Under the pieces are notes generated by a model. It was not told the origin of the DNA. It saw only the letters and a program-made list of their open reading frames with translations, and did no database searches. Below, piece by piece: positions 6,806 through 37,535 of a DNA stretch of 64,000 bases. Origin of the DNA: Polynucleobacter sp. HIN7 (GTDB lineage Bacteria > Pseudomonadota > Gammaproteobacteria > Burkholderiales > Burkholderiaceae); the NCBI RefSeq assembly GCF_030297595.1, contig NZ_AP028138.1:1550001-1614000 (forward strand), in the 5' to 3' direction. The position numbers and the translations under genes are program-made. Within the stretch, counting starts at the first letter, position 1. Every line of letters starts with the position of its first letter.

Positions 6806-7282
6806 ATGAACAAACTAACGCATTTTGATTCCAGTGGCCAAGCGCATATGGTCGATGTTGGCGATAAAGCATCTACCCACCGGGTAGCCATTGCCACTGG
6901 CTGTATTCAAATGAATCCTAACACCTATGAACTGATCGAGTCGGGTGGTCATAAAAAGGGGGATGTACTTGGCATTGCCCGAATCGCCGGAATACAGGCA
7001 GCCAAGAAAACAGCTGATCTTATCCCCCTCTGCCACCCAATTGCACTCACCCATGTGAGCATTGAGTTCCGATCCGATCAATCCAGCCACACAATTTATT
7101 GTCAAGCCAGAGCCGAGACCACGGGGCCTACTGGTGTTGAAATGGAAGCACTCACCGCCACCCAAATCGCCCTACTCACAATCTATGACATGTGTAAAGC
7201 CGTGGACCGTGGCATGGTGATGAGCGATATCAAATTACTTGAAAAGAGCGGTGGCAAATCGGGGGGTTGGAAGGCGAACTAA
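6806..7282 (+). CDS. moaC: Cyclic pyranopterin monophosphate synthase MoaC
   Basis: Second enzyme of molybdenum cofactor synthesis, converting the MoaA product 3',8-cyclo-7,8-dihydro-GTP to cPMP. The 158-residue protein shows [38 protein letters not shown] (the LCHP substrate motif), [10 protein letters not shown], and the C-terminal catalytic region [11 protein letters not shown] followed by [10 protein letters not shown]. It is a lone moa gene, divergent from the M48 protease with a 23-bp gap and convergent with the pilin gene. The other moa genes must lie outside this window. An orphan modA is present at 30.6 kb. Confidence 0.96.
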
Positions 7283-7304
7283 ACGCTCGCCCCAATCGAA
7301 TAAC

Positions 7305-7808
7305 TTACTTGCCTACGCGGCACTCTGCCGGTAAGAGCTTAGCGGGTAGATTGGTTTGCTCCGAACGGCACGACCAGCCACCCGACCAAGTCACTAAATT
7401 ACTTTGTGAGAGATCGATTGCTCGGGGCGCAGCGACATCCGGCTCATTGGTCGGAATCAAAATCAAACTGTTTTTACCATCGGGCGCTACCGATGTTTGG
7501 TAATCAATGGCAATCGCCCCGCTTGGCAAAATCTCAATTTCTTTCACGCTGCGCGTTGGGGTAAATGAAAAAGACTCTTGGGTCACTCGATCCATTGGGC
7601 TTGGTCCTTTGCTAGCGTATGCCTCGGTTACTGCCAATTTGGCGCTAGATGCCAGATTTAATCCTTCGACAACTCGCCCACGAGCTATGTAATCCTGATA
7701 CTGTGGCACCGCAACGGCAACTAAGATGCCAATAATGGCCACAACGACCATGACTTCAATTAATGTGAATCCCCGTTGATCGTCTTTTACTTCTTGATGT
7801 GTATACAT
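7305..7808 (-). CDS. Type IV pilin (PilA/PilE-like major or minor pilin)
   Basis: Prepilin of 167 residues. A short charged leader ends in RG, followed by the methylated-phenylalanine motif FTLIEVMVVVAIIGILVAVAVP, where PilD would cleave after glycine and methylate the new N-terminal phenylalanine. Glu5 of the mature protein, needed for assembly, is present. The C-terminus has two cysteines (WSC and AEC about 17 residues apart) that can form the usual disulfide-bonded D-region. The leader RNA folds into a strong hairpin that contains the Shine-Dalgarno sequence (see 7809-7865), so expression is probably regulated post-initiation. No other pilus genes are adjacent. Confidence 0.92.
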   Translation of the reverse strand: MYTHQEVKDDQRGFTLIEVMVVVAIIGILVAVAVPQYQDYIARGRVVEGLNLASSAKLAVTEAYASKGPSPMDRVTQESFSFTPTRSVKEIEILPSGAIAIDYQTSVAPDGKNSLILIPTNEPDVAAPRAIDLSQSNLVTWSGGWSCRSEQTNLPAKLLPAECRVGK

Positions 7809-7865
7809 AAAAAATCCCCTCCTTGATGGACCTCTATCTTCGGACAGAAATCCATCGCAGAGGGG
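7809..7865 (-). promoter_or_regulatory. Pilin 5'-leader hairpin sequestering the Shine-Dalgarno sequence, terminator-like
   Basis: Read on the minus strand, 7865 to 7816 folds into one long hairpin. GATGGATTTCTGTC (7856-7843) pairs over 14 consecutive bases with GATAGAGGTCCATC (7838-7825), closing a CGAA loop. After a 2x2 mismatch, CCCCTCT (7865-7859) pairs with GGAGGGG (7822-7816). That distal arm contains the only Shine-Dalgarno sequence of the pilin gene, nine bases from its ATG. A run of six U follows immediately (7814-7809). Several pairs are G.U in this strand and would be A.C on the other, which favours function as sense RNA. It could be an intrinsic terminator for terC read-through, a translational switch, or both. 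Confidence 0.7.
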
Positions 7866-7905
7866 TTTATTGGTTGTCAGTAATCCTTGATTTTAATATC
7901 AGTGC

Positions 7906-8613
7906 TTAGGCAGCTTTGGATTTACTTTTAGCACGACGCTTCATCAACTCACCAAAAGCCATCACAGCAACTGCACCTGTGATACCAGCAATGGTGGAGT
8001 ATCCGGCCATGCCCTCGCCAAACTGCTTGACAATGGCAGGATCGGTCACCATCATGCCGCCAGCAATCCAGCCCAAGAGGCCGGCACCCGCTGTCACAAT
8101 CAATGGGAAGCGATCAATCAAGAACAGAACCACCTTACTACCAGCGATGATGATCGGCACAGAAACGATCAAGCCGAACACGACATAACCAATTTGATGG
8201 GATGCATCATCCACCTGTCCTGCGGCGCCAGCAATCGCCAATACGTTATCCAAGCTCATCACGATGTCGGCAACGATGATGGTCTTAATTGCAGCAAACA
8301 ATTTGTCTGGCGCATCTAAGTTGTGCTCTTCCTCATCGTGCTGAACCATCAACTTGTAACCAATCCACAAGAGTAATGCGCCACCAACGAGTTTTAAGAA
8401 CGGGATTTGCAGTAAGGTCACTGCAAACGCGACTAAGATGACGCGCAAAATAATCGCGCCAGCGGTACCGTAAATGATGCCCTTCTTACGTTGATTTGGA
8501 TGCAAATTACGGCAAGCCAATGCAATCACGACCGCATTATCACCACCTAATAAAAGGTCGATGATGATGATTTGAATCACGACCGACCAGTCAATCATTG
8601 CTAAAAGTTCCAT
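7906..8613 (-). CDS. TerC-family integral membrane protein (YjbE-like)
   Basis: Inner-membrane protein of 235 residues with seven or so hydrophobic segments. The TerC signature is clear: IIIDLLLGGDNAVVIALACR near the N-terminus and IIVADIVMSLDNVLAIAGAAG in the middle, each with an intramembrane acidic residue (GGDNA, SLDN). TerC proteins of this class are implicated in metal-ion, especially Mn2+, efflux and in metallation of exported proteins. The substrate here is inferred only from family. AGAGGAAG precedes the ATG at good spacing. The downstream pilin gene on the same strand is separated by the hairpin at 7816-7865. Confidence 0.9.
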   Translation of the reverse strand: MELLAMIDWSVVIQIIIIDLLLGGDNAVVIALACRNLHPNQRKKGIIYGTAGAIILRVILVAFAVTLLQIPFLKLVGGALLLWIGYKLMVQHDEEEHNLDAPDKLFAAIKTIIVADIVMSLDNVLAIAGAAGQVDDASHQIGYVVFGLIVSVPIIIAGSKVVLFLIDRFPLIVTAGAGLLGWIAGGMMVTDPAIVKQFGEGMAGYSTIAGITGAVAVMAFGELMKRRAKSKSKAA

Positions 8614-8691
8614 GTCTTCCTCTAATTGTTATAACTACTTACCCAAACATTTCATTTCAACATCGCCTGCCATTACAACTGAATTCACAAA

Positions 8692-9585
8692 CTAAATCAT
8701 TGCTTTTAGTAAAGTCGCCATCTCAGAAGGGTTTTTGGTGACCTTAAAGCCACACTCTTCCATCACTGCTAATTTGGCATCCGCGGTATCAGCACCACCG
8801 GAAATCAACGCGCCCGCATGACCCATGCGCTTGCCTGGAGGCGCTGTCACGCCTGCAATGAATCCCACAACGGGTTTTTTCATATTGGTCTTGCACCAAC
8901 GCGCCGCCTCAACCTCGTCTGGACCGCCAATTTCGCCGATCATAATGACCGCATCTGTCTCAGGGTCTTCATTAAACATTTTCATCACATCGATGTGCTT
9001 CAAACCATTGATGGGATCTCCGCCAATGCCAACCGCGGTTGACTGGCCAAGCCCAATCGCAGATAACTGCCCCACGGCTTCATACGTTAGGGTGCCAGAG
9101 CGACTCACAACCCCAATGCGACCTTTGCGGTGAATGTGACCGGGCATGATGCCGATCTTGATTTCCTCAGGAGTAATCAAACCAGGGCAATTCGGGCCTA
9201 ATAACAAAGTTTTCTTACCGCCCTTGGCTTCTTTTTGTAGCATCTTGTTGCGAACTTCGAGCATGTCGCGCACCGGAATTCCTTCAGTGATGCAAATAAC
9301 CAAATCGAGATCGGCCTCAACCGCTTCCCAAATCGCTGCAGCAGCGCCTGGAGGTGGAACGTAGATCACCGAAACCGTAGCACCGGTTTCTTTGGCTGCA
9401 TCTTTCACGGTTCCAAAAATCGGAATCCCAAAAATCGATTCGCCAGCTTTTTTAGGATTGACGCCAGCCACAAAGCAGTTCTTACCGTTCGCGTATTCTT
9501 GGCACTTCTCCGTATGGAACTGTCCGGTCTTGCCAGTAATCCCTTGGGTAATAACGCGTGTGTTTTTATTTATCAAAATTGACAT
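8692..9585 (-). CDS. sucD: Succinyl-CoA synthetase alpha subunit
   Basis: Alpha subunit of the TCA-cycle enzyme that converts succinyl-CoA, ADP and phosphate to succinate, CoA and ATP. It shows the CoA-binding Rossmann fold (TRVITQGITGKTGQFHTEKC), GPNCPGLITP, and the phosphohistidine loop GHAGALISGGADTA near residue 245. At 297 residues it is of standard length. It lies 27 bp downstream of sucC and the two form an operon. No other TCA genes flank it. Confidence 0.97.
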   Translation of the reverse strand: MSILINKNTRVITQGITGKTGQFHTEKCQEYANGKNCFVAGVNPKKAGESIFGIPIFGTVKDAAKETGATVSVIYVPPPGAAAAIWEAVEADLDLVICITEGIPVRDMLEVRNKMLQKEAKGGKKTLLLGPNCPGLITPEEIKIGIMPGHIHRKGRIGVVSRSGTLTYEAVGQLSAIGLGQSTAVGIGGDPINGLKHIDVMKMFNEDPETDAVIMIGEIGGPDEVEAARWCKTNMKKPVVGFIAGVTAPPGKRMGHAGALISGGADTADAKLAVMEECGFKVTKNPSEMATLLKAMI

Positions 9586-9612: not shown

Positions 9613-10779
9613 TTACTTACCTTGCACAGCTGCAACAACTTTCGTTGCCGCCTCAGCCATGGAATCAGCACTGATGATGGGTAATCCCGAGTCAGCCAAA
9701 ATCTTTTTACCTAACTCTTCGTTGGTACCCTTCATCCGAACCACCAAAGGAACAGATAAATTGACTGCTTTACACGCAGTCACTACGCCATCGGCAATCA
9801 CATCGCAACGCATGATGCCGCCAAAAATATTAACCAAAATGGCTTTCACGCTCTTGTTTTTGAGCATGATCTTGAACGCTTCAGTCACTTTCTCTGCTGT
9901 TGCGCCACCGCCTACATCTAAAAAGTTCGCTGGCTGACCACCAAATAATTTAATGGTGTCCATCGTTGCCATCGCCAAGCCTGCGCCGTTGACTAAACAA
10001 CCAATATTGCCATCAAGGGAAATGTAGGCAAGATCAAATTTAGATGCTTCAATTTCAGCAGGATCCTCTTCATCCACATCACGGTAGGCCACGATTTCAG
10101 GATGGCGATAGAGCGCATTTGAATCAAAGTTAAATTTCGCATCAAGAGCCTTGATATTTCCATTGCCCTCCAGAATGAGTGGATTAATTTCCACCAAAGA
10201 TGCGTCGGTATCCCAATAGGTTTTGTAGAGGTTCTTCAATACCCCACGAGCTTGGGCTTGTGAGCCCTCAGGAACGCCAATGCCTTTACTGAGTTGATCG
10301 CACTGCGCATCGGTTAAACCAACTAATGGATCAACAAATACTTTAATAATTTTCTCAGGAGTCTTTTCAGCAACCTCTTCGATATCCATACCGCCCTCGC
10401 TTGAGGCCATTACGACTACTTTTTGCGTAGCACGGTCGGTCAAAATTCCGAGGTAGTACTCTTTCTTAATATCAGCGCCGTCTTCAACCAATAAACGACG
10501 TACTTTTTGTCCTTCGGGGCCAGTCTGATGGGTTTTTAATTGCATGCCCAAAATTGCGCTGGCGTATTGCTTCACTTCATCCATGCTCTTGGCGACTTTC
10601 ACGCCACCGCCTTTGCCACGGCCACCTGCATGAATTTGTGCTTTCACAACCCAAACTGGACCGCCTAACTTCTTCGCGGCTTCGATTGCCTCATCAACGC
10701 TAAACGCTGGAATACCATTGGGTACCGGTACATTAAATTGGCGCAGAATCTCTTTGCCTTGGTACTCATGAATTTTCAT
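9613..10779 (-). CDS. sucC: Succinyl-CoA synthetase beta subunit
   Basis: ATP-grasp beta subunit of succinyl-CoA synthetase, 388 residues as expected. Signatures are [15 protein letters not shown] at the start, the ATP-grasp lysine region [22 protein letters not shown], the metal-binding LVEINPLIL and [10 protein letters not shown], and [22 protein letters not shown] of the CoA-ligase domain. Binding partner SucD is encoded directly downstream. AGGAGCTG stands before the ATG. The leader holds a nested inverted repeat and an FNR-like dyad at 10830-10867, suggesting oxygen- or redox-linked control. Confidence 0.97.
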
Positions 10780-37458: not shown

Positions 37459-37535
37459 GGCGAATTAGCTCAGCTGGTTAGAGCGACGGAATCATAATCC
37501 GCAGGTCCGGGGTTCAAATCCCTGATTCGCCACCA
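37459..37535 (+). tRNA. tRNA with CAU anticodon (tRNA-Met)
   Basis: Complete 77-nt cloverleaf: acceptor GGCGAAT pairs with ATTCGCC, D-stem GCTC/GAGC, anticodon stem ACGGA/TCCGC with loop ATCATAA (anticodon CAT), variable AGGTC, T-arm CGGGG-TTCAAAT-CCCTG, and an encoded CCA end. The anticodon is consistent with elongator Met. Ile2 (lysidine-modified) cannot be excluded by eye. TACAAT at 37444-37449 is a good -10 element about 10 bp upstream. A terminator follows at 37542. Confidence 0.97.

Follow-up and report, generated by a model that had tools for sequence, protein, structure and literature searches.

A hairpin over the pilin Shine-Dalgarno sequence in Polynucleobacter and its possible role in insulation from upstream transcription

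The pilin locus and its leader hairpin

The window, i.e. the whole 64,000-nt stretch of DNA analysed here, comes from a freshwater bacterium and carries a type IV pilin gene with a terC-family gene as its upstream neighbour; sucC and sucD precede terC on the same strand (Table 1). The sucC-sucD pair is the supposed source of read-through, and transcription would continue from it into the pilin leader. The 78-nt spacer between sucD and terC folds to only -9.2 kcal/mol, and no dedicated terminator is found between the terC stop codon and the leader hairpin at this locus. The terC product falls into a family named for riboswitch control (R_switched_YjbE); despite this membership, no riboswitch reaches the Rfam gathering score anywhere in the 64-kb window.

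Table 1. Genes and leader elements at the pilin locus (window positions)
Feature	Position	Strand	Basis
Type IV pilin gene	7305..7808	-	PF00114 E 3.9e-13, N_methyl E 6.2e-11
Six U, terminator-like tail between hairpin and start codon	7809..7814	-	sequence, U-run comparison
Outer helix 3' arm GGAGGGG, overlapping the Shine-Dalgarno sequence	7816..7822	-	fold, pair counts
Pilin Shine-Dalgarno sequence AAGGAGG	7818..7824	-	sequence
Inner helix 3' arm	7825..7838	-	fold, pair counts
GAAGAT (GANNAT box), inferred pilin -10 element	7836..7841	-	position and leader comparison
CGAA loop	7839..7842	-	fold
Inner 14-bp helix 5' arm	7843..7856	-	fold, pair counts
Outer helix 5' arm CCCCUCU, complementary to the Shine-Dalgarno region	7859..7865	-	fold, pair counts
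terC-family gene, upstream neighbour of pilin	7906..8613	-	PF03741; NCBIfam TIGR03717 (YjbE family)
sucD (succinate--CoA ligase alpha)	8692..9585	-	NCBIfam
sucC (succinate--CoA ligase beta)	9613..10779	-	NCBIfam

The leader hairpin spans 7865-7816 on the minus (pilin-sense) strand. It consists of a 7-bp outer helix with one U.G pair within it, a 2x2 internal loop (GC/AA) and a 14-bp inner helix capped by the CGAA loop; an A and six U follow, and then the pilin ATG. The fold described in the first-pass annotation of this DNA (14-bp helix, CGAA loop, 2x2 mismatch, 7-bp helix, six U) is present base for base.

On the minus strand, an 81-nt segment folds to -35.1 kcal/mol, compared with -17.0 (s.d. 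3.0) in shuffles (z -6.0; 0 of 200 as good); the plus strand reaches -25.4 kcal/mol (z -3.3; again 0 of 200). Restricted to exactly 57 nt, the minus and plus strands fold to -35.1 and -23.0 kcal/mol respectively. The plus strand is weaker because the four G.U pairs of the hairpin become A.C. These pairs had been taken as a sign that the structure is kept for the pilin-sense RNA, and the homologues agree: among 16 distinct hairpins, the window's counted, this strand has the better energy in 15, the exception being leader L049 (-23.0 pilin-sense vs -27.0 kcal/mol). Both strands of the window were also scanned in 57-nt segments at every third position plus the exact register. Only three of 42,632 segments reach -35.1 kcal/mol, all of them overlapping registers of the pilin-leader hairpin, and the next distinct structure lies at -31.0 kcal/mol. 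No other structure among the scanned 57-nt segments of the 64 kb, whichever the strand, is as stable; this ranking applies to the window and not to the whole genome.

The earlier judgement that the hairpin is of no known class, c-di-GMP-I included, agrees with the family models: neither c-di-GMP-I nor any other Rfam riboswitch or RNA family matches. At gathering thresholds, the sole match in the whole window is a tRNA at 37459-37532. At E values up to 10, positions 7700-8000 give one match, SNORD61 (E 5.6, 7911-7968), which lies outside the hairpin and is surely due to chance.

In read-through RNA, the hairpin is predicted to bury the pilin Shine-Dalgarno sequence (SD), as had been proposed. 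Opening costs 13.5 kcal/mol (7-nt SD) or 17.2 kcal/mol (9-nt SD) at 37 C, and 0 of 60 shuffles are as high. Control of pilin by an RNA thermometer has been suggested for this leader, and the SD does sit in a helix; however, the predicted cost falls from 17.6 kcal/mol (10 C) through 15.3 (25 C) and 10.6 (55 C) to 8.7 (65 C). The SD is buried at every temperature tested (10-65 C) and stays far from melting in the plausible range; with costs this high, a thermometer is extremely unlikely. In a close relative (leaders L039 and L012) the SD region reads AATGAGGGG instead of AAGGAGGGG; this change breaks one outer pair and weakens the lock to 9.7 kcal/mol.

Pairing and leader kinds in related genomes

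Eight distinct sequences, the window's among them, keep 99.4% of cells paired, compared with 49-62% in slid controls. Ten cells are changed on both sides vs 3.9 in shuffles, and the covariation score is 0.236 vs 0.160 (0 of 500 shuffles for each). Pairs changed on both sides (3 vs 2.1; 145 of 500 shuffles) and pair types (8 vs 9.7; 499 of 500) are not above shuffles. Since the eight sequences fall into few sub-clades, independent events are fewer than cells. The outer helix was compared in 16 sequences; it swaps C-G with A-U and U-G with G-C, 99.1% of its cells are paired, and 15 are doubly changed vs 7.5 in shuffles (0 of 500), while doubly changed pairs and pair types are not above shuffles (500 of 500 for both). 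In a third sub-clade of six sequences covariation is uninformative, 172 of 500 shuffles scoring as high.

Exchange of arms between leaders points the same way. Among 12 thinned leaders of the window's kind, own arms pair at -24.8 kcal/mol vs -15.1 for the arms of others (P 5e-5, the permutation floor), and the own arm is the best partner in nine of the 12; leader L237 is an exception (own partner -10.1 vs -11.6 kcal/mol). No such effect is seen in 37 thinned leaders of the kind with a dedicated terminator (-13.0 vs -12.5 kcal/mol, P 0.15). Judged from these comparisons, the pilin-leader hairpin is a real conserved RNA structure whose arms co-evolve in relatives. Pairing at the RNA level for the pilin-sense strand, as first proposed, is borne out by compensatory changes among homologues and by arms that fit their own partners best.

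A DNA-level inverted repeat, serving as an operator or recombination site and having no RNA role, would be consistent with the overlap between the repeat and the inferred promoter (see below). It is very unlikely, given the bias in stability towards the pilin-sense RNA and the co-variation of the SD with the arm that pairs with it.

Leaders were compared across the genus Polynucleobacter. A pilin match is present in 170 of the 186 genomes searched, with one locus (the best match) taken per genome, and 152 can be classified; the other 18 have no neighbouring terC match of sufficient length, a contig end, a long gap or an unrecognisable pilin N-terminus. Distinct terC-to-pilin spacers number 154, three of which (over 350 nt) are dropped to leave 151. 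Named loci in the genome collection are the best 80 of 92, and many are labelled Polynucleobacter. One contig labelled uncultured Myxococcales (CAIPXZ010000538.1, leader L112) has a Polynucleobacter-type terC-pilin locus and is probably misbinned.

In the common kind of leader, found in 112 of 152 genomes, terC is followed by a dedicated hairpin terminator (typically GCCGGC...GCCGGCTTTTTT), then by a promoter with the layout TTGAG, 17 nt, GANNAT, and then by pilin. Five leaders (L166, L163, L252, L241 and L019) were set by hand as terminator-bearing, the script having missed the terminator. In 40 of 152 genomes no dedicated terminator is found after terC, and 34 of these carry the window's terC variant, whose members are 67-100% identical to the window's (41-50% for the other variant). 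The window's kind lacks the terC terminator and has a large hairpin ahead of pilin with the SD in its 3' arm.

SD-opening thresholds were picked after seeing the data, and hence there are three of them; at 9 kcal/mol or more, the SD is locked in 30 of the 34 terminator-less genomes with the window's terC variant and in 31 of all 40. Since 19 of 112 terminator genomes also reach this value, the contrast between lock and terminator is graded; 14 of the 19 distinct leaders matching those genomes have a small repeat beside the SD. An opening cost of at least 12 kcal/mol is seen in 20 of 38 distinct leaders without a terminator vs one of 113 with one. The median cost is 12.1 kcal/mol without a terminator (n=38) vs 6.4 with (n=113), with a P of 6e-11 that overstates the evidence because the leaders are related; with 60 shuffles of the upstream portion as the reference, the median z is 3.8 and 0.8 respectively.

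Some leaders depart from the two main patterns. Seven distinct leaders combine the window's terC variant with a terminator; in six the SD opens at no more than 8.0 kcal/mol and in one at 11.1. L049, from the cultured strain Polynucleobacter sp. 15G-AUS-farblos, has one of the weaker locks of the window's kind (10.9 kcal/mol, z 1.9). L132 and L133 have a long hairpin around the -10 box, an open SD (3.1 and 1.5 kcal/mol) and no U-run, while genomes G052 and G066 give SD opening costs of 8.1 and 7.8 kcal/mol. Five genomes with the other terC variant have neither a terminator nor a strong lock. In L160, L171 and L028 the terminator has apparently lost one arm (GCCGGCTTTTTT remains) and the SD opens at 4.5-8.9 kcal/mol; these leaders are possible intermediates.

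Two short repeats are also seen. Of the 113 distinct terminator-type leaders, 58 (e.g. L059, L060, L091) have a small GAGG...CCTC inverted repeat immediately ahead of the SD; placed between the inferred -10 box and the SD, it spans the probable start site and could serve as an operator or as a lock of lesser strength. An ATCAGA...TCTGA repeat follows the terC stop codon in several leaders without the GCCGGC terminator (e.g. L094, L135, L052), and similar letters flank the terminator in some others (e.g. L037).

The GC-rich stem followed by at least five U in the window's leader is the hallmark of an intrinsic terminator. A simple scan of positions 7000-9000 finds no terminator-like site by a rule requiring a single unbroken stem and a loop of 3-8. 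Thirty-two distinct leaders have the window's terC variant and lack a dedicated terminator; 18 of these carry a U-run of at least five ahead of the start codon, compared with none of the 113 leaders that have such a terminator. In 11 of the 32, which lie outside the U-run sub-kinds, the longest U-run is three or less; termination is therefore not a constant feature. The terminator-like appearance noted in the first-pass annotation thus holds for the window and the leaders that share its U-run, and not for the kind as a whole. The pattern fits a terminator role in those lineages which have the U-run.

Nine U-run-poor leaders (L134, L135, L137, L231-L235 and L237; U-run of three or less) still bury the SD at 7.8-12.0 kcal/mol, modestly so in four of them (at least 3 of 60 shuffles as high, or z near 2); SD burial is therefore more constant than termination. 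This bears on a simpler explanation, namely a plain terC terminator which overlaps the pilin SD by chance, with burial as a by-product and read-through so rare as to be of no consequence. A strong stem followed by a U-run, standing where the dedicated terminator is missing, is what such an element would look like; however, burial in leaders with so short a U-run, even if modest in four, makes this explanation unlikely.

Terminator loss, lock and terC variant go together. Two terC variants share the same place beside pilin, as noted for the window and for L072, L093, L182, L192, L196, L210 and L247. A sucD tree of 84 rows (91 full-sucD loci, 83 of them distinct, plus the window; quick search, no bootstrap) scatters the lock kind among the other kind, e.g. 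L131 as sister to L130, and requires at least seven changes, five of them forced by well-supported branches. The terC variants appear to have been exchanged between lineages, and the scatter fits exchange of a cassette of terC and leader. The tree offers four well-supported independent comparisons (eight on all branches). Lock and terminator are opposite in 3.7 of the four well-supported pairs on average (p 0.125); with only four such pairs, their mutual exclusion is suggestive but unproven.

A covariance model (R1; 16 leaders, 65 positions) was run on 299 genomes of the family, members of the genus included. Strong matches occur only in genomes G000 and G128, and six weak ones (E 0.002-0.09, stretches of 32-44 nt) in five further genomes. 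R1 gives no match in G012, G107 and G112, although their divergent leaders count as locked; part of the kind therefore goes undetected and R1 cannot establish absence outside the genus. A leader sequence pattern is found at 43 places in 40 of 186 genomes. Twenty are pilin leaders by position, and the other 23 lie elsewhere in the genomes and are unpaired by eye; leaders of other sequence (e.g. L131) are missed by the pattern and were found through their pilin loci.

A candidate promoter within the hairpin

Every one of the 32 leaders that lack a terminator and carry the window's terC variant has a -10 box pattern (GANNAT, CATGAT or GATAGT; chosen after inspection) at 9-19 nt from the SD on its upstream side, as do 107 of 113 terminator-type leaders. 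Promoter comparisons use box-bearing leaders only, 101 of the terminator type thinned to 37 and 32 of the other kind thinned to 12. In the 37 common-kind leaders, a TTGACA-like box peaks at a spacer of 17 before GANNAT, with a mean match of 3.38 of 6 and 62% of leaders matching at four or more; other spacers from 8 to 26 give a mean of at most 2.1 and at most 11%. The position of this box makes GANNAT the likely -10 element. TATAGA was considered as the common-kind promoter and set aside; the -35-like box peaks 17 nt from GANNAT, and the stretch 17 nt before TATAGA is little conserved.

In the window's kind, the -10 box lies within or beside the hairpin loop (by eye). GANNAT and the SD are usually 15 nt apart in common-kind leaders and two sub-kinds, and 12 nt apart in the window's. 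A gapless comparison puts the outer 5' arm of the hairpin where the common kind has its -35 box. Leaders of the window's kind show no -35 box at the 17-nt spacing (mean match 1.33 of 6, none with four); pilin's own promoter would therefore be weak or activator-dependent. The argument is weakest at this point: the mode of promoter recognition has changed, or else pilin is expressed otherwise. A CsrA site, with GGA in the loop, is set aside as GGA is not constant among leaders (by eye).

Pilin transcription would begin inside the inner 3' arm, around 7829, which is 6-8 nt beyond the candidate -10 box. The predicted cost of opening the SD drops from 14.3 to 1.3 kcal/mol in an RNA starting at 7860, and is 2.0 kcal/mol or less for the later starts tested; a start almost anywhere inside the hairpin therefore frees the SD. 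In the first-pass annotation, a pilin start inside the hairpin was named as evidence that would refute the proposal. The leader comparison suggests just such a start; the translational lock would still stand, confined to read-through RNA.

A regulated switch is another explanation. Pilin would be transcribed from a promoter upstream of the hairpin, or solely together with the terC operon, and the hairpin would be opened, or termination blocked, by a small RNA, a protein or a ligand. Expression platforms often join a terminator and SD burial, as this single structure does, and the internal -10 box of the window's kind lacks a consensus -35. Riboswitches of pilin genes exist elsewhere; PMC6366702 deals with c-di-GMP riboswitches. 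However, a promoter-like pair upstream of the hairpin does not score above shuffles on average (best score 7.4 vs 7.5 in the 12 thinned leaders; 6 vs 7.5 in the window), and the arms diverge freely provided that pairing stays. For the earlier proposal of a riboswitch expression platform there is no Rfam match; only about 39-58 nt separate the terC stop from the hairpin, and in this space no conserved aptamer-like stretch is seen by eye and only the short ATCAGA...TCTGA repeat recurs. With folding examined through minimum-energy and ensemble energies, regulated switching is rather improbable.

Probable insulation from the upstream operon and known counterparts

We favour, with a probability of about 0.55, a role in insulating pilin from sucC-sucD-terC, in which a terminator and a translational lock act against read-through and pilin's own transcript escapes. 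By computation, RNA entering from terC would form the whole hairpin and hide the pilin SD. Most of this RNA would be terminated between the SD and the AUG; RNA that escapes termination would stay untranslated with its SD locked. Pilin's own RNA, starting inside the hairpin near 7829, would lack the 5' arm, have a free SD and be translated. In related lineages, the conventional terminator after terC would do the job of termination, with a lock that is on the whole weaker.

If insulation is correct, one short stretch serves four functions: terminator, SD lock, promoter -10 box and SD-to-start spacer. More tentatively, lineages would swap this device for an ordinary terminator, so that either one predicts weakness of the other. 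The genus would then be a natural replacement series at the same gene (terminator plus weaker lock vs lock alone), which makes insulation of adjacent transcription units testable by comparison. Small genomes might use such leaders more generally to shield costly surface proteins from strong upstream operons. A further lesson would be that, where a gene's own RNA begins within a strong hairpin covering its SD, the hairpin may be neither a riboswitch nor a thermometer. Among titles and abstract openings on Polynucleobacter pilin, no paper or other account of this leader is found.

Bacteriophage T4 provides the closest parallels. In the long read-through RNA of gene e (lysozyme), the ribosome-binding site is hidden in a hairpin and lysozyme synthesis is down 100-fold; transcripts from the proximal late promoters, which lie just upstream, do not contain the 5' portion and are translated well (PMC3014915, in the portion available). 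The SD of the pilin leader is likewise predicted to be paired in upstream-initiated RNA. The effect was measured for gene e, whereas in the pilin leader it is predicted and the start site inferred; moreover, pilin is a bacterial chromosomal gene and part of its lineages have a U-run. The description of the gene e structure in the available portion of PMC3014915 does not use the terminator label. Tentatively, the pilin leader may be a cellular counterpart of the gene e leader, a terminator and lock with the promoter inside, swapped between lineages for an ordinary terminator.

The leaders of T4 homing endonucleases (I-TevI, I-TevII, I-TevIII and segB, with mobE of Aeh1) similarly hide the ribosome-binding site in upstream-initiated RNA and free it in RNA from the proximal late promoter (PMC2988022, available portion). 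As described there, these leaders govern the timing of phage early, middle and late RNA, whereas the pilin leader would provide insulation from a metabolic operon. The IS10 transposase gene is subject to fold-back inhibition, in which the SD is concealed in RNA entering from outside and RNA made from the internal promoter escapes; this arrangement sits at the end of a mobile element, while the pilin leader adjoins a host operon. Like intrinsic terminators, the pilin leader has a GC-rich stem followed by a U-run; unlike them, its stem holds the SD of the next gene and its U-run is the spacer between SD and start codon.
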